The notes under the pieces: generated by a model
Told to the model about the DNA's origin: nothing
Databases searched by the model: none
The model's input: only the letters and a program-made list of their open reading frames with translations
Source: a virus
IMG/VR virus record: IMGVR_UViG_3300042887_002089
Coordinates: 1-29,628 of that record
Length of the DNA stretch: 29,628 bases
Strand: one strand, 5' to 3'
Shown here: piece after piece, positions 3,232 to 23,091 of the stretch
How positions within the stretch are numbered: position 1 is the first letter of the stretch
How the letters are laid out: the number at the start of each line of letters is the position of its first letter
Translations under genes and position numbers: made by a program

Positions 3232-3297
3232 TCTTACGCCACCGTCGTTCTGGCGTTAGCCCCGTTGGCGGCAGCAGGGGGGGCGGGGCTTCCAGCC
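3232..3297 (+). repeat. Family-1 box-hairpin repeat, copy 1
   Basis: TCTTACGCCACCGTC (3232-3246), an 11-base gap, then AGCCCCG (3258-3264), which can pair with CGGGGCT just downstream. Short-gap subtype. It sits in the 3155-3357 intergenic stretch, which is otherwise very G-rich (runs of three to five G at 3173-3227) and has no supportable gene. Confidence 0.7.
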
Positions 3298-4123: not shown

Positions 4124-4167
4124 AAAAAAACCCGTTGAGTGCGTCAGCGTGAAACGCACCCAACGGG
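4124..4167 (-). terminator. Rho-independent terminator, minus strand
   Basis: On the minus strand a stem CCCGTTGgGTGCGT / ACGCACtCAACGGG (4131-4167) is followed by seven U (4124-4130). It ends the minus transcript of the genes at 4202-5311. Confidence 0.9.
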
Positions 4168-4201
4168 CTTTATGACTTTGGCTTGCGCCTTAGTCAGATG
4201 T

Positions 4202-4252
4202 TTAGAGGAACAGGACTAGGAAAATACCCACACAGAAGATGACAGCCATCAT
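4202..4252 (-). CDS. Tiny hydrophobic peptide, copy A (16 aa)
   Basis: The predicted peptide is MMAVIFCVGIFLVLFL. It is entirely hydrophobic after the first residues and long enough to span a membrane only just. Its ATG overlaps the stop of the preceding gene (ATGA, 4249-4252), so translation is probably coupled. It is one of six related 16-17 residue ORFs in this window, listed separately. The strong terminator at 4124-4167 follows. Resemblance in size and composition to Ibs-type type I toxins is noted, but no antisense RNA is apparent. Function unknown; recurrence is the main evidence that it is real. Confidence 0.7.
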   Translation of the reverse strand: MMAVIFCVGIFLVLFL

Positions 4253-4509
4253 TTTGCGTAATACTCCATAGCAGGGGTGTTCCACGCAGGCGCAAGTCGG
4301 CGAGCGAGGCTTGCGACCACCCACATCATGCGTTCTTCTGAGATGCCGTGAACATTCAGGTACACGCCTTGCTCTAACTCGTCTAGCACTATGTCTAGAA
4401 CCTCTGAGCCAGTAGTGCCGAGCGTGAAGTATTGCTCTTCCAGCAAGTCCACCAGTTCTTCGTTAGTCAAGTCCGTGAGGGGACTTTCGGGTTCTAAATG
4501 TATGTCCAT
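4249..4509 (-). CDS. Hypothetical acidic protein, 86 aa
   Basis: A small acidic protein, largely helical, not recognised. It starts at the ATG with an AAGGAGAAG ribosome-binding site. Its 5' end overlaps the end of the DUF4314-like gene by 16 bases and its stop overlaps the start of the tiny peptide by four, forming a tight minus-strand operon 5311 to 4202. No motifs support a function. Confidence 0.75.
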   Translation of the reverse strand: MDIHLEPESPLTDLTNEELVDLLEEQYFTLGTTGSEVLDIVLDELEQGVYLNVHGISEERMMWVVASLARRLAPAWNTPAMEYYAK

Positions 4510-4712
4510 GTATCTTCTCCTTGTATTAGACCGAGTGATGAGCCGTTGTCCCACTTGACATGAAGAGTACCCATGTCGTCAATGTAGTCCACAACGCCTT
4601 CATCACCGTTGCGTAGTTTTGTGTATGGGTCTGAGCAATGGATAAGGCGTACTCGCTTTCCAGCGAATACGCCCTTCACCCATTCGTTTGCGAGTTGGTC
4701 AATGCGCTTCAT
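4494..4712 (-). CDS. DUF4314-like small protein
   Basis: A 72-residue protein whose pattern (G-rV-LIHCSDPYTKL-GDEGVV-YIDDMGTLHVKWDNGSSLGLI) matches what I recall of the DUF4314 family, a small beta-rich domain common in phages and plasmids with no assigned activity. The start is the ATG in TAATG, overlapping the upstream stop by one base, which implies translational coupling. It is the second gene of the 5311-4202 operon. Confidence 0.75.
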   Translation of the reverse strand: MKRIDQLANEWVKGVFAGKRVRLIHCSDPYTKLRNGDEGVVDYIDDMGTLHVKWDNGSSLGLIQGEDTWTYI

Positions 4713-5311
4713 TAGCAAATCTGAAATCCACCACAGTTTGCCAAGAAAGTAATGAACTCACGAACATTCTTTTTGTCAAACGGATAGTTCTTTGCCCAAT
4801 GTTGCTGACCGCCAGTTCCCTGACAGCCGTTACATTCTTTTGTTTCTTCTGTCCAGCCCTCAGGCTTCTCAACAATGGTGTAGGTCGGAAGTTGTCCGTT
4901 GCCGTTGCCTTCGTTGTCTTTCTCATTCATCATGGCTTCCATGAGGTCGTAAGAGATAGATGCCTTGTATTCGTGTTGCTCTTTCGGGTTGGTGTACCAA
5001 GTACGCTTCCCTGTCGCCTGACAATGAACACATGGGCGAATAGGCAAAGACGCAAGCCATTCGGTGCGTGTCTGCTCGTAGTTGTCTAGCGTTCCGTCAC
5101 GCAGGCTCTTGCGTAGTGCCTTAGCGAGAAGCACAGAGTCCTCTGCATCAAGCCCATCTCCGTCATTGGAATAGCCATTCTCAACCGTACAGGTCAGTTC
5201 AGGTGCGACAAACTCGCAGTATTCCCATAAGGGTCGCCACCACCACACATTATTGCGGAAGTATGCGCCCTTCTCATTCTTTGGCTCTACGCCATAAACA
5301 TCCATTCCCAT
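4712..5311 (-). CDS. Hypothetical protein with DnaJ-type zinc motifs
   Basis: A 199-residue protein. An N-terminal segment begins MGMDVYG and is rich in Trp; the second half carries CVHCQATG and, about 60 residues on, CNGCQGTG. These CxxCxGxG motifs are characteristic of DnaJ/RNA-polymerase-type zinc knuckles, so a structural zinc site formed by both is likely. The start has an AGAAAGGGG ribosome-binding site; an alternative ATG lies two codons later. It is the first gene of a four-gene minus operon, driven by a TGTGACGAACGACACA promoter (5341-5395). Proteins of this layout are common in phages and remain uncharacterised. Confidence 0.75.
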   Translation of the reverse strand: MGMDVYGVEPKNEKGAYFRNNVWWWRPLWEYCEFVAPELTCTVENGYSNDGDGLDAEDSVLLAKALRKSLRDGTLDNYEQTRTEWLASLPIRPCVHCQATGKRTWYTNPKEQHEYKASISYDLMEAMMNEKDNEGNGNGQLPTYTIVEKPEGWTEETKECNGCQGTGGQQHWAKNYPFDKKNVREFITFLANCGGFQIC

Positions 5312-5340
5312 TGGATACCCCTTTCTAGTAGGTAGTAGAG

Positions 5341-5395
5341 AGTGTAATAGACACATGGCACTTGTCAATAGGTTATTTTTGTGTCGTTCGTCACA
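5341..5395 (-). promoter_or_regulatory. TGTGACAAA-type promoter, one-turn spacing
   Basis: On the minus strand: TGTGACGAACGACACA (5380-5395), TTGACA (5363-5368), a 16-base spacer, TACACT (5341-5346). The -35 begins at position 28 of the site. Confidence 0.7.
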
Positions 5396-5437
5396 CCTGT
5401 GCATGAACTTGTGCAAGTCGCATCCGTGCTGGCGAGT

Positions 5438-5499
5438 TCTTCCGCCACCGTCGGTTTTTGTCTGGTAGCCCCGTCCGGCAAAAACGCGCCGCGGGGCTT
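5438..5499 (+). repeat. Family-1 box-hairpin repeat, copy 3
   Basis: TCTTCCGCCACCGTC (5438-5452), a 14-base gap, AGCCCCG (5467-5473) and a downstream CGGGGCT that can pair with it. Short-gap subtype. It is in plus orientation although both flanking genes are on the minus strand. Confidence 0.7.
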
Positions 5500-5543
5500 C
5501 CGTGCCATCTGGGAGTTCTTCTGGGTTCTGAGGCTGTGACTGG

Positions 5544-5579
5544 GCAAAACAAAAGCCCCACGCCGTAAAGCGTGGGGCT
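5544..5579 (-). terminator. Rho-independent terminator, minus strand
   Basis: On the minus strand AGCCCCACGC / GCGTGGGGCT (5554-5579) is followed by TTTGTTTTG. It ends the transcript of the gene at 5604-5798. Confidence 0.85.
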
Positions 5580-5603
5580 AGTGTTTCGGGTTTGCTCTTG
5601 CGA

Positions 5604-5798
5604 TTATTTGGTGATTGCGTTTGCAAACTTCTCAGCGTCAAAACGGTAGTTCTCGGATTGAAGGGCTTTGGCGATTGCTTTGATAGCCTCGTCAAAACCT
5701 TTCAGCGTTGCTTCTGCCTGTGGCATCATGCTCGCTTCCAAGTCTTTGCGCTTGTCGTTGAGAAACTTTGCCAGCAGGACATAGTCCTTGCGTGTCAT
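5604..5798 (-). CDS. Hypothetical helical protein, 64 aa
   Basis: A small Lys/Ala-rich, probably all-helical protein starting MTRKDYVLLAKFL, a start I associate with small phage proteins of unknown role. The ATG follows GAAGGGGAAACC. Its promoter (5949-5993) would give a leader of about 144 bases that contains a GGTGCGC/GCGCACC hairpin (5837-5859) and a TGAGACA box (5830-5836), so post-initiation control is possible. Function unknown. Confidence 0.7.
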   Translation of the reverse strand: MTRKDYVLLAKFLNDKRKDLEASMMPQAEATLKGFDEAIKAIAKALQSENYRFDAEKFANAITK

Positions 5799-5948
5799 GG
5801 TTTCCCCTTCTCGGTGCTTTGGTTGTAAGTGAGACAGGTGCGCTTGTCTAAGGCGCACCCCCTACCCCGACAGTTCCCCCCTATGGTTTCAGGTCACAGA
5901 TTATGTGGAGCAATCCCAAAAGGCTTCGGTTCAGTTGTCTCACTTGTA

Positions 5949-5993
5949 AGGGTACAGGTATCACCCACACGCCACAACATGACATTTGTCACA
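5949..5993 (-). promoter_or_regulatory. TGTGACAAA-type promoter for the gene at 5798
   Basis: On the minus strand: TGTGACAAATGTCATG (5978-5993), TTGTGG (5972-5977), 17 bases, TACCCT (5949-5954). A TGAGACA box (5936-5942) lies at the predicted start point. Confidence 0.65.
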
Positions 5994-6098
5994 GAACAGG
6001 TGTTCGCCGAACAAGTGTTCGCATGAGACACAAAGGCTCAAACTGTCTCACGCTACGAACAGGTGTTCGCCTGAGACATTCGGGGGCAAACTGTCTCA
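5994..6098. promoter_or_regulatory. Cluster of two palindrome families
   Basis: Three near-identical palindromes GAACAnGTGTTC (5994-6005, 6009-6020, 6057-6068) alternate with two copies of TGAGACA-N13-TGTCTCA (6024-6050 and 6072-6098), 48 bases apart. Half sites recur at 5830-5836 and 5936-5942. The arrangement looks like a multi-site operator upstream of the minus promoter at 5949-5993 and the plus units at 6257 and beyond. Confidence 0.6.
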
Positions 6099-6140
6099 CT
6101 CTCTCGCAACTCGCCCGTGAACTCGCCCTTCGCCCGTGCA

Positions 6141-6200
6141 TCTTACGCCACCGTCGCTTTGGGGTCTTGAGCCCCGGCCGGAAAAACCGGCCCGCGGGGC
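6141..6200 (+). repeat. Family-1 box-hairpin repeat, copy 4
   Basis: TCTTACGCCACCGTC (6141-6155), 14-base gap, AGCCCCG (6170-6176). Downstream, GGCCGG/CCGGCC and CGGGGCT allow a long hairpin that closes on AGCCCCG. Short-gap subtype. Confidence 0.7.
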
Positions 6201-6256
6201 TACTGGGGCGACGCTCAGGTTGCCATCGGCAGCGGCGATGTCGGCTGAGGAAAGAC

Positions 6257-6286
6257 TTGACATCGGCTTGGCTGTGTGCCTAAAGT
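6257..6286 (+). promoter_or_regulatory. Promoter just ahead of tiny peptide B
   Basis: TTGACA (6257-6262), 18 bases, TAAAGT (6281-6286). The predicted start point falls at or very near the ATG at 6295, so the peptide mRNA would be leaderless. Confidence 0.5.
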
Positions 6287-6294
6287 GACTAACA

Positions 6295-6345
6295 ATGAAC
6301 TCACTACTATTTGTAATAGCCCTAATCATTGTGCTTAGTGCCTAA
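6295..6345 (+). CDS. Tiny hydrophobic peptide, copy B (16 aa)
   Basis: The predicted peptide is MNSLLFVIALIIVLSA. It shares MNSL-FVIA-I with copies D and E far downstream. Unlike the others it has no upstream gene to couple to and no ribosome-binding site, but a TTGACA/TAAAGT promoter ends eight bases before its ATG, consistent with leaderless translation. Its 3' end is followed directly by the promoter of the gene at 6422. Function unknown. Confidence 0.6.
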   Translation: MNSLLFVIALIIVLSA

Positions 6346-6362
6346 TGTCACAAAACAACTAC

Positions 6363-6391
6363 TTGACTAATGGCTACTAACTTGGTAGTCT
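6363..6391 (+). promoter_or_regulatory. Promoter for the gene at 6422
   Basis: TTGACT (6363-6368), 17 bases, TAGTCT (6386-6391). A clear TGTGACAAA site is missing; only a degenerate TGTCACAAAA lies upstream. Confidence 0.6.
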
Positions 6392-6421
6392 GAAAGTCTC
6401 AACTCACAAAAGGGGGGAATC

Positions 6422-6778
6422 ATGACTGATTCTGTCATTGAGTGGGAAGTGATAAGCAACACTTCAGACGAAGTGGAGTGGGACGATGCGAACTTTGTGT
6501 TCGCTGAAGTAGCCAACACGCTCATTGCTCATAATGAGGAACTCAACGAAGGCGACACTTGGTGGCGTGTTCAGGGATTCCCGTTGTGGGGCGGTGGGCG
6601 CAATGGTATTTTCCGCGCCGATAGTCCGATGGAGTTGTTGGAGAGTATTACCGTTCGTTCGGACTGGTCATTGCGCTACACGCTTGACCCCGAAACGATG
6701 ATTCTCACTTGTCACCTTTCTCACCACGATGCAAGCGGAACTTTCACGGTGCAGGCAACGCCTAATCCAGACCGCTAA
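6422..6778 (+). CDS. Hypothetical acidic protein, 118 aa
   Basis: An acidic, Trp-rich soluble protein with alternating beta-type segments. I recognise no family. The start follows AAAGGGGGGAATC. It is a one-gene unit with its own promoter (6363-6391) and a GC-rich terminator (6804-6835) that closely resembles the terminator of the gene at 9343, which suggests that gene units in this region share duplicated flanks. Confidence 0.7.
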   Translation: MTDSVIEWEVISNTSDEVEWDDANFVFAEVANTLIAHNEELNEGDTWWRVQGFPLWGGGRNGIFRADSPMELLESITVRSDWSLRYTLDPETMILTCHLSHHDASGTFTVQATPNPDR

Positions 6779-6803
6779 TCCAACCAACCACAACCAAGCA
6801 AGC

Positions 6804-6838
6804 AAGCCCGTTCCCGAAAGGGGGCGGGCTTGTTGTTT
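6804..6838 (+). terminator. Rho-independent terminator
   Basis: AAGCCCG TTCCCGAAAGGGGG CGGGCTT followed by GTTGTTTG. The core CCCGTTCCCGAAAGGGGGCGGG also occurs at 9737. Confidence 0.8.
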
Positions 6839-6850
6839 GTACCCGCATCG

Positions 6851-6910
6851 TCTTCCGCCACCGTCATAGTAGTGAGACTGCCATCGGCAGCCCCGCTACC
6901 CGATGGCAGT
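6851..6910 (+). repeat. Family-1 box-hairpin repeat, copy 5
   Basis: TCTTCCGCCACCGTC (6851-6865), 23-base gap, AGCCCCG (6889-6895) in the loop of a perfect 11-bp hairpin (ACTGCCATCGG at 6877-6887, CCGATGGCAGT at 6900-6910). Long-gap subtype. Confidence 0.85.
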
Positions 6911-7084
6911 AAGCCCCCGAACGTTCCATCTCGGCACGTTTGAGTTTGACTTTTTTTTTGTGTTTGACTCAGTTTTGACCACTCTGAGTAAGAAACTTCT
7001 ACTTTTCACCACTATCCGTGTTTATCTAAGCAAAACTGGCAAAAAACTAAGGCCAGAAAGTCCCCGTCGAGGGCCGGTTCTTCT

Positions 7085-7135
7085 GGGCCGTGCGAGAGTC
7101 CCGATGCTCGCATCGCCCTTCGGGGCTTACGGGCG
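7085..7135 (-). repeat. Family-2 AGCCCCG hairpin, inverted copy
   Basis: On the minus strand AAGCCCCGA...TCGGGACTCT (CGGGGCTT on plus at 7121-7128) can fold with CCCGA/TCGGG. It is the only family-2 copy in this orientation. The preceding 6937-7066 is A/T-tract-rich and has no gene I can support. Confidence 0.45.
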
Positions 7136-7181
7136 CACGCACGGGCGCAGTCGCACACGAGGCTGGCTTCCGATGAAGGGC

Positions 7182-7225
7182 TGTGACAAACGACACTTGT
7201 GTTTTGTGTTGTTGTTCCGTACACT
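7182..7225 (+). promoter_or_regulatory. TGTGACAAA-type promoter
   Basis: TGTGACAAACGACACT (7182-7197), -35 TTGTGT (7197-7202), 17 bases, TACACT (7220-7225). It drives the gene at 7266. Confidence 0.75.
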
Positions 7226-7265
7226 TACAGTTGTTACATACACCTACACCCTTGGGGGGTAAAAA

Positions 7266-7844
7266 ATGGAAGAAGAAAATAGTCCAGAGCAAGTTCTTGC
7301 GATGGTCGTGGAAAAAGCAAAACAAGCAAAGTGGATACTTTGTGAAGAGAATGGTGGCATAGCAGACGCACCACCAATACTCTTCGGAGAGTTCGCAAAC
7401 GGCGATGGCTTCATCGCCCCCGACCTTATGGAAGGACACCCAACAGACACCTTGCCTGTAATGCTAGACGGCTTGCTACAAGGAATGACCGAGCAGTACG
7501 GAACACCAAAGTTCCTGTGGCTTGCTTATGTCGTAGAGGGCTACTGTCGTCCAGCAATGACAGACGAAGAAATGGAAAAAACACAGCGTGGAGAAATGGA
7601 AGAGGACTACAAACAAAATCCTTCCACAGATGTCCGTGAGGGCATTATCGCTACTGTCTATCCGTGGGACGGAGAAGCAATAGCGCAGACGCTTCTGTAT
7701 CGCTACAACGACAACGGTATGCCTGTCTTTGACGACCCTAACGACTTCCAAGAGGTTGGGAAAACAGGTGGTGGAAACATTCCTGACTTGTTCCAAATGT
7801 TCATTACTCATTGTCGCCGTGTCGTAGAGGCAAACAACAACTAA
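7266..7844 (+). CDS. Hypothetical protein, 192 aa
   Basis: A soluble, acidic protein with no membrane segment or cysteine cluster that I can use. The N-terminus is Glu/Lys-rich and helical; the middle contains several Asp/Glu-rich turns. The start follows a GGGGGGT ribosome-binding site. It is a single-gene unit between a TGTGACAAA promoter and a strong terminator at 7860-7900. No family recognised. Confidence 0.75.
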   Translation: MEEENSPEQVLAMVVEKAKQAKWILCEENGGIADAPPILFGEFANGDGFIAPDLMEGHPTDTLPVMLDGLLQGMTEQYGTPKFLWLAYVVEGYCRPAMTDEEMEKTQRGEMEEDYKQNPSTDVREGIIATVYPWDGEAIAQTLLYRYNDNGMPVFDDPNDFQEVGKTGGGNIPDLFQMFITHCRRVVEANNN

Positions 7845-7859
7845 GTCCCCCCAAGAGCC

Positions 7860-7900
7860 AAGGGGTCGTTCGCCGAGTTACATCGGTGGGCGACCCCTTT
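7860..7900 (+). terminator. Rho-independent terminator
   Basis: AAGGGGTCG (7860-7868) pairs with CGACCCCTT (7891-7899), with further internal pairing, then T. Confidence 0.8.
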
Positions 7901-7920
7901 GTGCTGTCCCCGAATAGTTC

Positions 7921-7966
7921 TCTTCCCCCACCGTCATAATAGAGTTGGGTCTGCTTCGCAGCCCCG
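7921..7966 (+). repeat. Family-1 box-hairpin repeat, copy 6
   Basis: TCTTCCCCCACCGTC (7921-7935), 24-base gap, AGCCCCG (7960-7966). Here AGCCCCG lies inside the spacer of the promoter at 7945-7973. Confidence 0.7.
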
Positions 7967-7973
7967 CTAGTAT
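7945..7973 (+). promoter_or_regulatory. Promoter embedded in repeat copy 6
   Basis: TTGGGT (7945-7950), 17 bases containing AGCCCCG, TAGTAT (7968-7973), then the ATG at 7981 seven bases later. This predicts a leaderless or near-leaderless mRNA. Confidence 0.5.
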
Positions 7974-7980
7974 AAACATT

Positions 7981-8187
7981 ATGACCTACGCCTTATTTCG
8001 TTGTGTATTTTGCGACCACCCAGTTTCAGTCGGGGAAAGTGGAGTGATGAAACAGGTCTTGTGTTGGGTTCGGTCAAACAACAACACATCTCCGAAGGGC
8101 ATACAGAGCCAGCATCGGTACGCACACGCTGTGTGCTTGGAAACGGATTTACACGGCAGGTCTGAACAAGCCGAGACGCTGTTTTAG
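7981..8187 (+). CDS. Small cysteine-containing hypothetical protein
   Basis: A 68-residue protein with CVFC near the N-terminus and two further cysteines plus histidines toward the C-terminus (HAVC), compatible with a small zinc-binding fold. There is no ribosome-binding site; a promoter ends seven bases before the ATG, so leaderless expression is likely. It converges on, and overlaps by four bases, the minus-strand tiny peptide ORF. Moderate confidence that it is expressed. Confidence 0.5.
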   Translation: MTYALFRCVFCDHPVSVGESGVMKQVLCWVRSNNNTSPKGIQSQHRYAHAVCLETDLHGRSEQAETLF

Positions 8188-8237
8188 TTCAGGAAAAGAA
8201 CAAGACCAATGGCGACAACAAAGATGATGCTCATCAT
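8184..8237 (-). CDS. Tiny hydrophobic peptide, copy C (17 aa)
   Basis: The predicted peptide is MMSIIFVVAIGLVLFLN, closely matching copy A (MMAVIFCVGIFLVLFL). It starts with ATGA overlapping the stop of the minus-strand gene ending at 8234, the same overlap as in copy A. The duplication of both the peptide and the coupled start strongly suggests a real gene. Function unknown. Confidence 0.7.
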   Translation of the reverse strand: MMSIIFVVAIGLVLFLN

Positions 8238-8629
8238 TGGTGCGCCTTGCGCCAGCCACCATTGCCATCACCAAAGTAAGTGTCGGGCTTGCCGTTGCCG
8301 ACTTTCTTCCAAGTCCAAGCCCAGCGACAGCACGAAGGGTGAAGTGTCCCATCGTCACCATCATCACGAAAGTCCGTGTGTATGAAGTTCGGGTGACAGC
8401 CACCCTGAAACTTGTCACCAAGCAACGGGAAAGTGGTCAGAAACTTTACAACGCAGTCGTGACACATACTTAGAAAGCGTGTCTCTTCTCCACCTATCAG
8501 CACATCAACGCAGTCGTCAAAGCCCCCGTAGTAGCCGAAGCAGTCAATAGGTAAAGACCAGCCCCCATCAGGGGACACGCTTTGTTGTGTGTTGCGTTGT
8601 TCTAAACCACAAGTATCACAGATAATCAT
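8234..8629 (-). CDS. Cys/His-rich hypothetical protein, 131 aa
   Basis: The N-terminus MIICDTCG and later CHDC, with further Cys and His residues, suggest one or two zinc sites, with CDTC and CHDC as the likely knuckles. Aromatic residues and glycine are abundant. Start at ATG 8629 after AAAGAG. It is the second gene of the minus operon 8841-8184, between a small membrane protein and the tiny peptide copy C. No specific family assigned. Confidence 0.7.
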   Translation of the reverse strand: MIICDTCGLEQRNTQQSVSPDGGWSLPIDCFGYYGGFDDCVDVLIGGEETRFLSMCHDCVVKFLTTFPLLGDKFQGGCHPNFIHTDFRDDGDDGTLHPSCCRWAWTWKKVGNGKPDTYFGDGNGGWRKAHQ

Positions 8630-8637
8630 GTTCTCTT

Positions 8638-8841
8638 TCAGGGTTGGTAGATGTTGTACCCGTATGGGTCGTACAGAGTCGTTGTCGTTTCGCAAGGGTA
8701 GTGGTAATACTCGCAGTCGGAAAGACCTTGCTTGTCGTCTCCGATGGAGCCAATAAGAATGAGAGTCGCGCCGATAAGACCTGTCCAAAAGATGAAGCGC
8801 ACACACGACCTTATTGTGTAGTAGATGGGTGGGTGGTTCAT
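8638..8841 (-). CDS. Small membrane protein, paralogue 1
   Basis: A 67-residue protein: a short basic N-terminus, one hydrophobic segment (about residues 15-35), then an external-looking tail with HYPCET-TT-YDPYGY. It is clearly paralogous to the plus-strand protein at 11574 (shared RSCVRF-FW, HYPCET and YDPYGY). Its promoter (8848-8892) places the start point on the first base of the ATG, so the mRNA is probably leaderless. First gene of an operon ending in tiny peptide C; the paralogue is also followed by a tiny peptide. Confidence 0.8.
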   Translation of the reverse strand: MNHPPIYYTIRSCVRFIFWTGLIGATLILIGSIGDDKQGLSDCEYYHYPCETTTTLYDPYGYNIYQP

Positions 8842-8847
8842 GTCTAC

Positions 8848-8892
8848 AAGTTACAAGGTGTACCACACAACATCAACATGACTTTTGTCACA
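8848..8892 (-). promoter_or_regulatory. TGTGACAAA-type promoter, leaderless
   Basis: On the minus strand: TGTGACAAAAGTCATG (8877-8892), TTGATG (8871-8876), 17 bases, TAACTT (8848-8853), six bases, ATG at 8841. Confidence 0.7.
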
Positions 8893-8944
8893 CAGGGAGA
8901 AGCGAGGAAGGGAGTGAGTGAATAGACGGCGAAGAACAACTCGC

Positions 8945-9000
8945 TCTTGCGCCACCGTCGTAATGGGGCTGAGGGGTAGCGGGGCTAACGCGCAGCCCCA
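8945..9000 (+). repeat. Family-1 box-hairpin repeat, copy 7 (variant)
   Basis: TCTTGCGCCACCGTC (8945-8959). The AGCCCCG element is altered: GGGGCT, AGCGGGGCT and AGCCCC occur in succession (8965-8999) and could form alternative hairpins. Confidence 0.6.
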
Positions 9001-9131
9001 GAAGAAGCCAGGCGAAGGGGGTTGGAACCAGGCAAGTCGGTTGGTTTGCGTTTTGGTTTTTTCCTTTTTTGACCACGCAGCGTAATGAACTTTGTTTTTT
9101 GACCACTTTTAGTGAGATTGCGCCAAAAAAC

Positions 9132-9159
9132 TTGACAAAAACGGACTTCGTGTTATGCT
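9132..9159 (+). promoter_or_regulatory. Strong promoter ahead of a family-2 hairpin
   Basis: TTGACA (9132-9137), 16 bases, TATGCT (9154-9159). No ORF starts nearby; the transcript would begin about 10 bases before the family-2 structure at 9177. The stretch 9040-9130 is A/T-tract rich. Confidence 0.6.
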
Positions 9160-9176
9160 TTTTACCATCAGCACAC

Positions 9177-9241
9177 CCGTCGCATCTGGGAGCCCCGATG
9201 GTAGCGATGCTGACATCGGGACTATCCCGCGCGCGCGACGG
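9177..9241 (+). ncRNA. Family-2 structured RNA candidate
   Basis: An outer stem CCGTCGC (9177-9183) with GCGACGG (9235-9241) encloses GGGAGC, an inner stem CCCGATG (9194-9200) with CATCGGG (9214-9220), and ACTAT. The inner stem is replaced by CCCGCAT/ATGCGGG in the copy at 10724, so pairing is preserved while sequence changes. A TTGACA/TATGCT promoter precedes it. It then runs into the TGTGACAAA promoter of the gene at 9343. Confidence 0.55.
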
Positions 9242-9278
9242 AGTTTCTCGGCTGTGGCTTGGTCTGCCTCGGCTGGCG

Positions 9279-9322
9279 TGTGACAACTGCCACTTGCGTT
9301 TGTGGCGTGTTGCTTGTACCCT
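9279..9322 (+). promoter_or_regulatory. TGTGACAAA-type promoter
   Basis: TGTGACAACTGCCACT (9279-9294), TTGCGT (9294-9299), 17 bases, TACCCT (9317-9322). Confidence 0.65.
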
Positions 9323-9342
9323 ACAAAGTGAAAGGGGGTGAA

Positions 9343-9705
9343 ATGAAACTAACAAATACTGACCTGTCACTTATCGCATTGCGTAATCGTGACCGTTCAG
9401 GTCGTGACTGTGACCCGCAAGAAGTTATAGCCCAAATGGGCAGAATGAACTTTTTTGCTGTTTGCGGTGGCAAGTGGGCAAAGATAAACGCTAGTGATGG
9501 CGTGACTATCGGCTTGCTGATGCCGTGTGGCGAAAGTCGTGCGGTTGAGGTGGTGCTCAACTTTTTAGACCTGTATGAAGTGCGCCGTGTGCGCCTTGTG
9601 AACCGTGGCGAAGCCAAAGGTACGCTAGTCGTTGAGCACGAAGTGCTAGATGTTTACTGTGAGAACTTAGGCGATGCTGTCTATTCTGCTTCCTGCTGGA
9701 AGTAA
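9343..9705 (+). CDS. Hypothetical protein, 120 aa
   Basis: A soluble protein with a basic N-terminal third and a beta-rich C-terminal half; four scattered cysteines with no clear metal motif. The start is the ATG after AAAGGGGGTGAA; a longer frame upstream overlaps the promoter and is unlikely. One-gene unit: TGTGACAAA promoter, gene, GC-rich terminator resembling that after the gene at 6422. No family recognised. Confidence 0.7.
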   Translation: MKLTNTDLSLIALRNRDRSGRDCDPQEVIAQMGRMNFFAVCGGKWAKINASDGVTIGLLMPCGESRAVEVVLNFLDLYEVRRVRLVNRGEAKGTLVVEHEVLDVYCENLGDAVYSASCWK

Positions 9706-9734
9706 TCCAACCCAACAACCCAACCAACCAAGTG

Positions 9735-9768
9735 CGCCCGTTCCCGAAAGGGGGCGGGCGTTTCTTGT
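9735..9768 (+). terminator. Rho-independent terminator
   Basis: CGCCCG TTCCCGAAAGGGGG CGGGCG followed by TTTCTTGTTG, nearly the same hairpin as at 6804. Confidence 0.8.
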
Positions 9769-9779
9769 TGTGCGCATTG

Positions 9780-9840
9780 TCTTACGCCACCGTCACTAAT
9801 AGTTTAGGGGTACTTGGTAGCCCCGCCCACCAAGTACCCC
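9780..9840 (+). repeat. Family-1 box-hairpin repeat, copy 8
   Basis: TCTTACGCCACCGTC (9780-9794), 24-base gap, AGCCCCG (9819-9825) in the loop of a perfect 12-bp hairpin (GGGGTACTTGGT at 9807-9818, ACCAAGTACCCC at 9829-9840). Confidence 0.9.
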
Positions 9841-10002
9841 AGACGGAGTCACGTGAGCTCGAGCTCGAGCTTGGAAGGGAGAAAAAATAATGGAACTTCG
9901 TATTTTTTCACTCAAAGTTTTAATTTTTTCCTCAAACACAAAAGAAAGTGGGCAAAACACTAAGTCCTCAGGTGAAGAACTCACGTTCAGATGTCTTCCG
10001 AC

Positions 10003-10041
10003 GGGTAAGCCCCGCGGCCGGATTTTTCCGTCCGGGACTCT
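10003..10041 (+). repeat. Family-2 AGCCCCG hairpin, third copy
   Basis: GGGTAAGCCCCG (10003-10014) and CGGGACTCT (10033-10041) flank an imperfect hairpin. The preceding 9870-9990 is A/T-rich with no gene; GGCCC/GGGCC pairing continues downstream to about 10070. Confidence 0.45.
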
Positions 10042-10140
10042 GGCCCAACCCGTGGCCACGGGCCCCCGCTGCCGCTGCGACCACGACTGACATCGTGAAG
10101 TTCCATGTGCTGGTTCTGCTTGTGCTCGTTGCGGTTCGGC

Positions 10141-10184
10141 TGTGACAAACGACACTTGTCAAAGCGAGTTGTGACCTGTAACCT
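10141..10184 (+). promoter_or_regulatory. TGTGACAAA-type promoter
   Basis: TGTGACAAACGACACT (10141-10156), TTGTCA (10156-10161), 17 bases, TAACCT (10179-10184). Confidence 0.75.
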
Positions 10185-10211
10185 GCTACTTACTATCTAC
10201 AAGGAGGTTTC

Positions 10212-10418
10212 ATGCCGGAGTTCTATCCGGAAGAAGCCAAGTTACAGAAGTCAAAAAGATACGGAAAAACTTTTGGCAAGATGGTGAAGGCGTTTGAGGG
10301 CACCAAGTGCGGGCGATGCAGTCACATCATTGACGAAGGTACTAGTTGCGTTTGGCTTCGTGGGCTTGGTTGCTTTCACATACAAGGCGAGTGTCCAAAG
10401 AAAGAAGAGAATGAATAG
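10212..10418 (+). CDS. Small zinc-finger-like protein, 68 aa
   Basis: A basic, Lys-rich N-terminal helix is followed by CGRC, then two more cysteines and a Cys-x-His pair near the C-terminus (CxxC-x10-C-x7-CFH), consistent with a small treble-clef or similar zinc fold. The start has a near-perfect AAGGAGG ribosome-binding site four bases upstream of the ATG. The 3' end overlaps tiny peptide D by eight bases. A nucleic-acid-binding role is plausible but not shown. Confidence 0.75.
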   Translation: MPEFYPEEAKLQKSKRYGKTFGKMVKAFEGTKCGRCSHIIDEGTSCVWLRGLGCFHIQGECPKKEENE

Positions 10419-10461
10419 TCTTCTTTTTGTAATCGCCATCATCGTTATTCTTTCTTTCTAA
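10411..10461 (+). CDS. Tiny hydrophobic peptide, copy D (16 aa)
   Basis: The predicted peptide is MNSLLFVIAIIVILSF, almost identical to copy B and very close to copy E. Its ATG lies within the last codons of the preceding gene (eight-base overlap), with an AAAGAAAGAAGAG purine tract as a possible ribosome-binding site. A strong terminator begins four bases after its stop. Function unknown. Confidence 0.75.
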   Translation: MNSLLFVIAIIVILSF

Positions 10462-10464
10462 AAG

Positions 10465-10498
10465 AAAAACCCTCGTGCTTCGGTGCGAGGGTTTTTTT
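10465..10498 (+). terminator. Strong Rho-independent terminator
   Basis: AAAAACCCTCG (10465-10475), loop with TTCG, CGAGGGTTTTTTT (10486-10498). It could terminate transcription in both directions. Confidence 0.9.
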
Positions 10499-10503
10499 GC
10501 GCC

Positions 10504-10563
10504 TCTTCCGCCACCGTCAATTTATTTACAACCCCCTTCACAGCCCCGCTTGTGAAGGGGGTT
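10504..10563 (+). repeat. Family-1 box-hairpin repeat, copy 9
   Basis: TCTTCCGCCACCGTC (10504-10518), 23-base gap, AGCCCCG (10542-10548) in the loop of a perfect 12-bp hairpin (AACCCCCTTCAC at 10530-10541, GTGAAGGGGGTT at 10552-10563). Confidence 0.9.
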
Positions 10564-10663
10564 GCTCTCAGCGCACGTTCCCCGTCGCCAAAAAAACTGA
10601 GCAAAAAACTCAAAGAACTTCAAGTTTTTTGTCAAAAAAAAACAAAAAAGTCATAAAACGAAC

Positions 10664-10691
10664 TTGACAAATGAAAAAAACTTGTTATGTT
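10664..10691 (+). promoter_or_regulatory. Strong promoter ahead of a family-2 hairpin
   Basis: TTGACA (10664-10669), 16 bases, TATGTT (10686-10691), following an A-tract-rich stretch (10590-10660). Same geometry as the promoter at 9132. Confidence 0.6.
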
Positions 10692-10723
10692 GCTTGGTTT
10701 GACTGGGGTGTGTCAGGGTTTTG

Positions 10724-10805
10724 CCATCTTCGCACGGGAGCCCCGCATACCCGTTTTGGGGATGCGGGACTATTGCTGTCGCATCAGGTCTGGTTGCCCA
10801 GATGG
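10724..10805 (+). ncRNA. Family-2 structured RNA candidate
   Basis: An outer stem CCATCT (10724-10729) with AGATGG (10800-10805) encloses GGGAGC, an inner stem CCCGCAT (10742-10748) with ATGCGGG (10762-10768), and ACTAT. GGGAGC and GGGACTAT are shared with the copy at 9177 while the stem sequences differ compensatorily. Confidence 0.55.
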
Positions 10806-10843
10806 CTGATGGCAAGCCTCAACCTTGCCGAAAGGTGCGCAAG

Positions 10844-10888
10844 TGTGACGAGTGTCATGTTGTTATTGCGCCTTGCCCCCTATAAGGT
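10844..10888 (+). promoter_or_regulatory. TGTGACAAA-type promoter
   Basis: TGTGACGAGTGTCATG (10844-10859), TTGTTA (10860-10865), 17 bases, TAAGGT (10883-10888); an overlapping TATAAG at 10881 is an alternative -10. Confidence 0.6.
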
Positions 10889-10918
10889 GTAACCACAACC
10901 GAGGGGGTGAAAAAAATA

Positions 10919-11116
10919 ATGACAAAAACAGAAGCAGAACAACTTGCCAAAGGCAAGACGCTAGTAGAACTTTACGAGATTATTCGTCTTAGTTCCGAAT
11001 ACGAAGCGAACGCCGAAAACAACCTAATCGTTGAGGTAGTAGATGCAGAAATTCGCAGCCGAATGGGTAACGACCACCCAGTCGGACTCGCTGCACTACT
11101 TTCTCCACGCCGATAA
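10919..11116 (+). CDS. Hypothetical protein, 65 aa
   Basis: A small acidic, probably helical protein, not recognised. I prefer the ATG at 10919, with GAGGGGG as ribosome-binding site, over a GTG at 10907 that overlaps that site. It is followed 35 bases later by tiny peptide E, which has its own ribosome-binding site, and then a terminator. Confidence 0.65.
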   Translation: MTKTEAEQLAKGKTLVELYEIIRLSSEYEANAENNLIVEVVDAEIRSRMGNDHPVGLAALLSPRR

Positions 11117-11151
11117 GTCATAACCTCCCGTCTATTTAGGAAGAGAGGAAA

Positions 11152-11202
11152 ATGAACAGTCTATTTTTTGTAATCGCAATAATAATTATTGCCAGTCTTT
11201 AG
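11152..11202 (+). CDS. Tiny hydrophobic peptide, copy E (16 aa)
   Basis: The predicted peptide is MNSLFFVIAIIIIASL. It is preceded by a good ribosome-binding site (AGGAAGAGAGGAAA) independent of the upstream gene, which is the best single argument that these short ORFs are translated. A terminator starts immediately after its stop. Confidence 0.75.
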   Translation: MNSLFFVIAIIIIASL

Positions 11203-11203
11203 A

Positions 11204-11239
11204 AAAACCCTCACACTTCGGTGTGGGGGTTTTCTTTTT
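11204..11239 (+). terminator. Strong Rho-independent terminator
   Basis: AAAACCCTCACAC, TTCG loop, GTGTGGGGGTTTTCTTTTT. Confidence 0.9.
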
Positions 11240-11240
11240 G

Positions 11241-11285
11241 TCTTCCGCCACCGTCAATGTAATTGTCAATCACTTCGGAGCCCCG
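11241..11285 (+). repeat. Family-1 box-hairpin repeat, copy 10
   Basis: TCTTCCGCCACCGTC (11241-11255), 23-base gap, AGCCCCG (11279-11285). The AGCCCCG is at the same time the first base block of the 155-base structured element at 11279. Confidence 0.75.
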
Positions 11286-11433
11286 CTCGCTTCGTACCGA
11301 CCTTCCACTCACTACGCATCTTGTTACTTCGGTCTACGCCCGAAAGTAAACAAGAAACTTCGTTCGTTCCAGACGGTACTTCGCTCGCAGGCTCTTCGCA
11401 ACTCTCTGGCGAGAGTGCTTCAGAGCCCCGTTG
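11279..11433 (+). ncRNA. Three-stem structured RNA candidate, copy A
   Basis: It begins AGCCCCGCTC and ends AGCCCCGTTG. Stem 1 GTACCG (11294-11299) pairs with CGGTAC (11374-11379). Inside it stem 2 TCTTGTT (11319-11325) pairs with AACAAGA (11349-11355), extended by ACTT/AAGT and CGG/CCG. Stem 3 GGCTCT (11390-11395) pairs with AGAGCC (11422-11427) and encloses ACTCTC/GAGAGT. Unpaired ACCTTCCACTCA, TACGCAT and CGTTCCAGACG are shared with copy B at 11879, while all three stems differ in sequence and keep pairing. No ORF here is convincing. Confidence 0.8.
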
Positions 11434-11487
11434 GTTTTTTATGACTTGGGCGCATCTTCACCAGTCCTCGTGCGGTCTTTGGTCAAG

Positions 11488-11543
11488 AGTGACAAACAGC
11501 ACACAAAAAGGTTCTTGACTTTGACTCTTGTAACTTGTACCTT
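11488..11543 (+). promoter_or_regulatory. TGTGACAAA-type promoter, one-turn spacing
   Basis: AGTGACAAACAGCACA (11488-11503), TTGACT (11515-11520, position 28 of the site), 17 bases, TACCTT (11538-11543). Confidence 0.65.
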
Positions 11544-11573
11544 GTACATGGGCGGAGAACCCGAAGGGAAACT

Positions 11574-11756
11574 ATGTACAATTTCGTACGCTCTTGCGTT
11601 CGTTTTGTGTTTTGGGGAACCATTGTTAGTGCGGTTTGGCTGGGCATCATTGCTATTTCCAACTCGTACGACAGCAACACCCCTGAATGCGAAACGCTCC
11701 ACTACCCATGTGAAACACCAACAACCATCTATGACCCATACGGGTACGGGAACTAA
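11574..11756 (+). CDS. Small membrane protein, paralogue 2
   Basis: A 60-residue protein with MYNFVRSCVRFVFW, a single membrane segment (about residues 9-27), and a C-terminal tail ETLHYPCETPTTIYDPYGY. It is paralogous to the minus-strand protein at 8638 over its whole length, including the invariant HYPCET and YDPYGY. Start chosen at the ATG after GAAGGGAAA. Tiny peptide F follows nine bases after its stop, as peptide C follows in the operon of the other paralogue, so membrane protein and peptide may work together. Confidence 0.8.
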   Translation: MYNFVRSCVRFVFWGTIVSAVWLGIIAISNSYDSNTPECETLHYPCETPTTIYDPYGYGN

Positions 11757-11765
11757 AGGGGGAAA

Positions 11766-11816
11766 ATGAGTTCTGTTATCTTTGTAGCAGTTTTGTTTGC
11801 GATATTAGCATTGTGA
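11766..11816 (+). CDS. Tiny hydrophobic peptide, copy F (16 aa)
   Basis: The predicted peptide is MSSVIFVAVLFAILAL, the most divergent of the six but with the same length and S-x-x-F-V pattern. It is preceded by AAAGGGGGAAA, a strong ribosome-binding site. A terminator follows 12 bases after the stop. Confidence 0.7.
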   Translation: MSSVIFVAVLFAILAL

Positions 11817-11827
11817 AAGGAAAAAGA

Positions 11828-11858
11828 TGTCCCTGCTCAGGCAGGGGCATTTTTTTTG
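11828..11858 (+). terminator. Strong Rho-independent terminator
   Basis: CCCTGC (11831-11836), loop TCAG, GCAGGG (11841-11846), then GCA and eight T. Confidence 0.9.
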
Positions 11859-11878
11859 CCCTTTTTTGGCTACCTAGT

Positions 11879-22774: not shown

Positions 22775-23091
22775 GCAAAGAACTAAACGACCAGAACTTC
22801 GATTCCTTCTTGGGCTCTACAGACAAGTACGTACTTGTTGACGTGTGGGCTGAATGGTGTGGCCCGTGCTCTTTCTTCGGTCCAATCATTGAAGAGGTTG
22901 CAAACGAACATAAAGAACACATCGAAGTAGGGAAACTAGACGTAGACGCTTTCCCTCAGATTGCACAGAAATATAGCGTCATGAGCATCCCTACTGTTAT
23001 CATATTTGATAACGGTCGTGTTGTGGACAGAATCGTTGGCGCGTACCCCAAAGACAAGTTTGTAGAAAAGATAAAAAAATATCTTTCGTGA
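22771..23091 (+). CDS. Thioredoxin
   Basis: A 106-residue thioredoxin with the active site WCGPC (W29, C30, C33), the buried Asp before it (D24), and the cis-proline loop SIPTV (near residue 73). Length and motifs match canonical thioredoxin. It starts with GTG in a four-base overlap. Since the window also encodes a class II ribonucleotide reductase with a C-terminal CxxxxC, this thioredoxin is the likely reductant for it. Confidence 0.93.
   Translation: MSKELNDQNFDSFLGSTDKYVLVDVWAEWCGPCSFFGPIIEEVANEHKEHIEVGKLDVDAFPQIAQKYSVMSIPTVIIFDNGRVVDRIVGAYPKDKFVEKIKKYLS

Follow-up and report, generated by a model that had tools for sequence, protein, structure and literature searches.

Six very short open reading frames (ORFs) in a 29.6 kb fragment of viral DNA (IMG/VR virus record IMGVR_UViG_3300042887_002089, referred to throughout as the window) very probably encode translated microproteins under selection. 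The peptides are most likely membrane helices that act in trans. A first-pass annotation of the window had proposed them as genes that are real but unannotated, and this proposal is now strongly supported by conservation in related phages, by the pattern of substitutions, by the retention of the same positions and by free-standing copies.

Re-translation of the window reproduced all six ORFs and their peptides with exactly the coordinates and strands first assigned to them; we refer to them as peptides A to F after the adjoining genes. Peptides A (MMAVIFCVGIFLVLFL, 4202–4252, minus strand) and B (MMSIIFVVAIGLVLFLN, 8184–8237, minus strand) each begin in an ATGA overlap with the stop codon of the preceding gene (at 4252 and 8237), and peptide C (MNSLLFVIAIIVILSF, 10411–10461, plus strand) overlaps gene C by 8 bases, in agreement with the three stop overlaps originally described. 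Ribosome-binding sites of their own, claimed for two ORFs, were confirmed for peptide D (MNSLFFVIAIIIIASL, 11152–11202, plus strand), which starts 35 nt downstream of the end of gene D, and for peptide E (MSSVIFVAVLFAILAL, 11766–11816, plus strand; site AAAGGGGGAAA). Peptide F (MNSLLFVIALIIVLSA, 6295–6345, plus strand) has a leaderless-type start, a plausible assignment given the -10-like hexamer 8 nt upstream. Only three of the ORFs, those beginning at 10411, 11152 and 11766, lie directly against a terminator, one fewer than the annotation had counted.

Such ORFs are rare in random sequence of the same kind. Nine ORFs in the window combine an ATG start and 14–18 codons with at least 70% hydrophobic residues and no charged, His, Pro or Gln residue: the six described here, two nested second starts, and one at 22956–23003 that lies antisense to a thioredoxin gene and is probably due to chance. 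When the window was shuffled under a first-order Markov model, such ORFs numbered 0.17 on average and never more than 1.

Relatives were gathered through the helicase protein of the window, yielding 25 and then 80 loci (designated L and a number), mostly with helicases 58–100% identical to it; this search was far more productive than a DNA pattern search with the peptide, which returned near relatives only, plus one chance match (L002). These related uncultured phages carry hydrophobic ORFs of 16–19 residues at the same neighbour genes, and the positions after the orthologs of genes A, B, C and E and before gene F are shared across lineages. The position after the gene A ortholog is occupied by MSVIFCVGLFIILFSSDI in L010 and MTFGFIIIIFLLFLLWAFD in L019 and has lost its peptide in L017 and L020. 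After gene B we find MTFIVILIIAFAVVAIS (L019), VSAFITVLALIVLLSVIN (L017), VTAIIVLVAIALLFAL (L035) and MVVSIVALIAILLLLS (L033); at the position of peptide C, MTILIIVLIAVIVVAMS (L019), MSAIIIVVALIFLFSI (L017) and MTALIVALAVLLLLAI (L035); at that of peptide D, MNSLLFVIALIIILTF (L010); and at that of peptide E, MSSVIFVAVLFALLAL (L011), MEIVIIILSVAFLAVSIS (L019), MSALITVLAVIVLFTV (L017) and MVAVVVALTVFALLSVG (L035). The peptide before gene F is present in L010, L011, L017, L019, L020, L033 and L035/L037. Genomes near the window have five or six peptide ORFs in the region, and those of other lineages two to six. On the same contigs, the density of hydrophobic ORFs of 15–19 codons differs eleven-fold between the two sides of the helicase: 4.71 per 10 kb upstream, in the cassette region, and 0.43 per 10 kb downstream. 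A GTG-started hydrophobic ORF at 10095–10145 (plus strand; VKFHVLVLLVLVAVRL) was not counted in the family: outside the window it is seen only in L010 (VKFYVLVLLVFVAVRL), the same scan finding none in L011, and it is probably a chance ORF.

The substitution pattern points to selection at the protein level. Across 16 ortholog comparisons, some of which share a genome and are therefore not fully independent, 35 synonymous and 44 nonsynonymous changes were counted, giving a ratio of nonsynonymous to synonymous difference (pN/pS) of 0.46 (p = 6e-4 versus neutrality); for the window against L010 and L011 alone, the ratios are 0.29 and 0.32. Where length differs, in the comparisons of peptides F and B, the indels are all multiples of three. 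Checked among the relatives for frameshifts or stop codons and for a lack of synonymous excess, the genes stood on both counts.

The peptides are also separable from the genes that precede them. Starts in the relatives are ATG or GTG, at offsets of -8 to +36 bases relative to the end of the preceding stop codon. The reading frame relative to the upstream gene therefore differs from one relative to another, and fused forms were not seen; we accordingly reject a readthrough or fixed-frameshift tail of the upstream protein. Moreover, free-standing peptide genes adjoin the helicase in three subgroups (L047/L049, L054/L055/L058 and L056), where a TTGACA-17-TAnnnT promoter-like site at -59 and a ribosome-binding site precede the 17 codons and a strong terminator hairpin follows them. 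Similarly, in L050, L067 and L024 a peptide with a promoter-like site and a ribosome-binding site of its own stands directly before the helicase.

Within each lineage the peptides share a sequence of their own. The window has M[NMS]S..FV, the L017 group MSA.I.V.A, the L019 group MTF/MKF..I, the L050/L067 group MIE[MF] and the L065 group ME.G. To express this as a score, peptide pairs were given z values against composition-preserving shuffles, and genome labels were permuted. The mean z was 3.4 for pairs within a genome versus 0.9 for pairs between genomes; the peptides group by genome rather than by gene position, with within-minus-between differences of 2.5 in a curated set of 12 genomes (none of 5000 label permutations reached the observed difference) and 2.3 in a fully automatic set of 15 genomes (none of 3000). 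Across lineages, a shared position adds little likeness: peptide pairs score a z of 1.38 when they occupy the same position and 0.84 when they do not. The paralogs of one genome are synonymously saturated (pS 0.61–0.88, pN 0.23–0.51), and codon choice at the residues they have in common is close to random expectation in most genomes. Their likeness is thus kept at the protein level and not by recent DNA copying, L050 being a possible exception, and recent gene conversion is unsupported as its source in most genomes.

Exchange of a neighbouring gene makes the same distinction visible at the level of DNA. The gene B products of the window and L017 are 96% identical, with a synonymous divergence (dS) of about 0.17, whereas the helicases of the two phages are synonymously saturated. 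The match (window 8234–8629 versus L017 3589–3966, minus strand) loses its DNA identity a few codons short of the stop, and past this breakpoint each phage has a peptide of its own type, MMSIIFVVAIGLVLFLN in the window and VSAFITVLALIVLLSVIN in L017. Gene B has therefore been exchanged while the peptides have remained typical of their lineages: gene bodies move between lineages and the resident 3' module, the peptide and what follows it, stays in place. Gene A shows the same kind of exchange, but L017 and L020 have no peptide there.

Sixty distinct peptides have 16–21 residues, a mean grand average of hydropathy (GRAVY) of 2.6 and 54% Leu/Ile/Val; the longest run of nonpolar or small residues is 13–19, forming a short hydrophobic core with polar ends. 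The sixty together hold one Lys and one Arg, and the window's six have no basic residue at all. Length and composition fit the earlier description of very small membrane peptides, and the system probably acts at the cell membrane.

We interpret these results, with somewhat better than even confidence, as reflecting one family of translated membrane microproteins that act in trans, their helices associating with one another or with a membrane partner that differs between lineages. Each peptide of 16–18 residues, almost devoid of basic residues, would form one short hydrophobic helix. Several operons of small genes would end in a peptide cistron, either coupled to the stop codon before it or served by a ribosome-binding site or promoter of its own, and some relatives would make the peptides from complete stand-alone mini-genes; that multiple copies come from several operons hints that dose or timing matters. 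We infer that, after release from the ribosome, they would insert into the host membrane and act there in trans with a physiological effect. All copies in one phage would be held to a common sequence that differs between lineages, and this shared lineage-specific sequence is what suggests mutual association or a common partner: the working unit would likely be helices associating together or with one lineage-differing membrane protein of host or phage. The expected outcome would be a change in the envelope, for example in membrane protein function or membrane potential, and possibly the exclusion of a second phage. We regard it as possible, but doubtful, that the lineage-specific sequences amount to a private code, in which the copies are kept compatible with a membrane partner or with their sister peptides and the resident peptide survives cassette exchange. 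If so, this would be a membrane recognition or exclusion system built of helices of 16–18 residues, possibly the smallest such phage gene family.

Several points weigh against a family of membrane helices with a common partner. Old duplication inside each lineage is a serious rival to the shared partner, as the likeness within lineages can stem from such duplications without any partner. Codon likeness in L050 is 0.48 versus 0.33 expected, so that recent duplication or conversion is possible there, and likeness within the genome is weak in L033, L047, L056 and L063. A hydrophobic run of 13–16 residues is shorter than the usual transmembrane helix, so that the peptides may dimerise, span half of the membrane or bind at its interface. 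The first of these points can be extended to a scheme of birth and death only, with one ancestral peptide per lineage duplicated long ago and its copies in independent, operon-tied roles. Synonymous saturation permits duplications of that age, and presence or absence varies by position, yet the same positions are filled across lineages and peptides do not cross between lineages as gene bodies do, which leaves this scheme somewhat unlikely. It is scarcely credible that the ORFs arose by chance or as by-products of terminators or promoters. Intergenic DNA rich in AT often contains short hydrophobic ORFs (PMC11188072), but the near-zero counts in shuffles and the density contrast across the helicase led us to reject a chance origin, which conservation, selection and the free-standing genes contradict as well.

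Known systems of short hydrophobic peptides offer further explanations. Like Ibs (PF13956, the E. coli Ibs/Sib loci), which has several paralogs per genome, the peptides are very short, hydrophobic, multi-copy and under gene-caller cutoffs; unlike Ibs, a set of chromosomal toxin-antitoxin loci, they are last cistrons, free-standing or leaderless, and occur in phages. IbsC has 19 residues, and toxicity is kept by 15 residues of which at least 10 are hydrophobic (reviewed in PMC8309996). The peptides fall in this size class (about 15–19 residues, at least 10 hydrophobic) and share its short hydrophobic core with polar ends, so that Ibs-like peptides depolarising the membrane without an antisense RNA, with host membrane damage or a block to second infection as the result, come into consideration. 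However, type I toxins usually rely on basic residues (PMC8309996), and the basic membrane-anchoring residues typical of them are not a feature of these peptides. The Pfam model PF13956, run on DNA, is so permissive that it hit 11 of 14 control genomes, with the E. coli control positive, yet at E<=10 it matched neither the window record nor any of 12 related records. Sib RNA appeared neither at the gathering threshold nor among weaker matches in Rfam scans, which bears out the earlier remark that no antisense RNA is seen, and no promoter-like site lies antisense to the six ORFs, although consensus scans may miss a novel antisense RNA. The suggested membership among Ibs-type type I toxins is accordingly unsupported, as there is no PF13956 match, Sib RNA or antisense promoter and Lys and Arg are almost absent; nor does unspecific toxicity need a common sequence among the copies of one phage, and we consider a toxin of this kind unlikely.

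Alternatively, translation of the Leu/Ile/Val-rich ORFs could act in cis, as a leader or attenuator that controls the adjacent terminator through amino-acid supply or stalling. Three ORFs abut a terminator, Leu/Ile/Val make up 54% of residues, and Rfam Leu_leader (RF00512), from the leaders of branched-chain amino-acid operons, matches 10395–10498 (plus strand) below threshold (29.4 bits, cutoff 50) because a short Leu/Ile/Val-rich ORF precedes a terminator there, as it does in those leaders. Unlike them, half of the window peptides have no co-directional gene behind: past peptides A, B and E the next gene is on the opposite strand, leaving no same-strand downstream gene to be regulated by read-through, and we reject an attenuator role for these three of the six. 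In addition, free-standing and leaderless copies exist, the distance to the terminator ranges from 2 to more than 30 nt or there is no terminator, and composition alone leaves the genome-specific sequence unexplained; attenuation is thus very unlikely. We give equally little credence, or slightly less, to a signalling role, in which leaderless hydrophobic peptides of the LCP/SIP or SHP type would be sensed by a receptor of the phage or its host, with a code for each lineage. Like the SIP/LCP peptides of Firmicutes with their RopB receptors, the phage peptides are hydrophobic, leaderless and without a signal peptide, have lineage-specific codes and are missed by annotation. LCPs, however, are hydrophobic peptides of 8–10 residues with distinct codes (PMC10518010), half the length of those described here, and are encoded in Firmicutes beside an RRNPPA receptor. 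Copies in one phage vary at several positions, unlike an exact ligand, and within the part of the genome covered by the 29.6 kb fragment no receptor family was seen beside them, the neighbour genes having no Pfam match. There is a more general likeness to small phage proteins and intergenic microproteins, which are often hydrophobic and under purifying selection, some starting less than 10 nt from an upstream stop codon (PMC11323111, PMC11188072); unlike small phage proteins in general, these peptides form a lineage-specific, multi-copy family of 16–18 codons with free-standing transcription units.

Genes of 16–18 codons escape gene callers, and sequence alone rarely proves them real. Here, kept positions, synonymous excess, saturated paralogs and mini-genes that run from promoter to terminator make a comparative case without experiment. 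The family shows selection keeping the dispersed copies of one genome to a sequence typical of the lineage while neighbour genes move between lineages. It provides a testable candidate for membrane function at the peptide level in uncultured phages, and a way to look for other hidden families of this kind. A search of the open literature returned no published description of the peptide family, which does not in itself prove novelty.

Besides the peptides, the window encodes an SNF2-type helicase, a WhiB factor, a class II ribonucleotide reductase, a DUF932 protein and three tRNAs; the WhiB gene suggests an actinobacterial host. Among cultured phages, its helicase and primase are best matched by proteins of Arthrobacter phages, and because these are only about 31–34% identical, the collection searched holds no close cultured member of the group. 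Around the helicase genes of two Arthrobacter phages, Ottawa and LiSara, there was no convincing peptide family, and cultured phages had no match to cassette gene I, a gene whose use as a query added no further lineage. A host search of genome contigs returned only three contigs of metagenome-assembled genomes, of doubtful binning.

The cassette genes adjoining the peptides have no Pfam match and a single weak PHROG match. Gene A (4249–4509, minus strand; 86 residues, no Pfam or PHROG match) is the upstream partner of peptide A, and a terminator-like hairpin (4124–4171, minus strand), read from the sequence, begins about 31 nt past the peptide's stop codon. Gene B (8234–8629, minus strand; 131 residues) precedes peptide B, whose ORF has no adjoining terminator and whose stop codon overlaps that of a convergent 68-residue gene (7981–8187, plus strand). 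On the plus strand, peptides C, D and E follow gene C (10212–10418, 68 residues), gene D (10919–11116, 65 residues) and gene E (11574–11756, 60 residues, with an N-terminal hydrophobic stretch seen by eye). Terminators stand directly 3' of these three peptides, at 10467–10498 (recognised by inspection, the hairpin scan listing its inner stem), 11204–11238 and 11820–11863 (both from the scan), all on the plus strand. Upstream of peptide F, a promoter-like TTGACA-18-TAAAGT (6257–6286, plus strand) ends 8 nt before the start codon; downstream follows gene F (6422–6778, plus strand; 118 residues), with its own promoter between the two. By inspection, several lineages have -10-like hexamers 6–8 nt upstream of the peptide F start in promoter sequences that differ, the promoter scan itself having called only the site in the window.

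Two small proteins that adjoin peptides B and E, encoded at 8641–8841 (minus strand) and by gene E, are 48% identical paralogs with a C-terminal YDPYGY motif and an N-terminal hydrophobic stretch, and are kept across lineages. Operator-like sequences resembling TGTGACAAACGACACTTGT, picked out by eye, lie shortly upstream of several cassette genes (3355, 5390, 7188 and 10140). Finally, the repeat TCWTMCRCCACCGTCR occurs on the plus strand at 3239, 4030, 5445, 6148, 6858, 7928, 8952, 9787, 10511 and 11248. It is followed 9–34 nt on by AGCCCCG, often in the loop of a hairpin with a variable stem; stems of at least 7 pairs were found in 35 of 140 distinct instances, versus 6 in shuffled controls. 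The repeat lies nearly always on the helicase strand, at a spacing of about 700–800 bp and usually just past terminators, and is present also in the peptide-less relatives L068 and L080.

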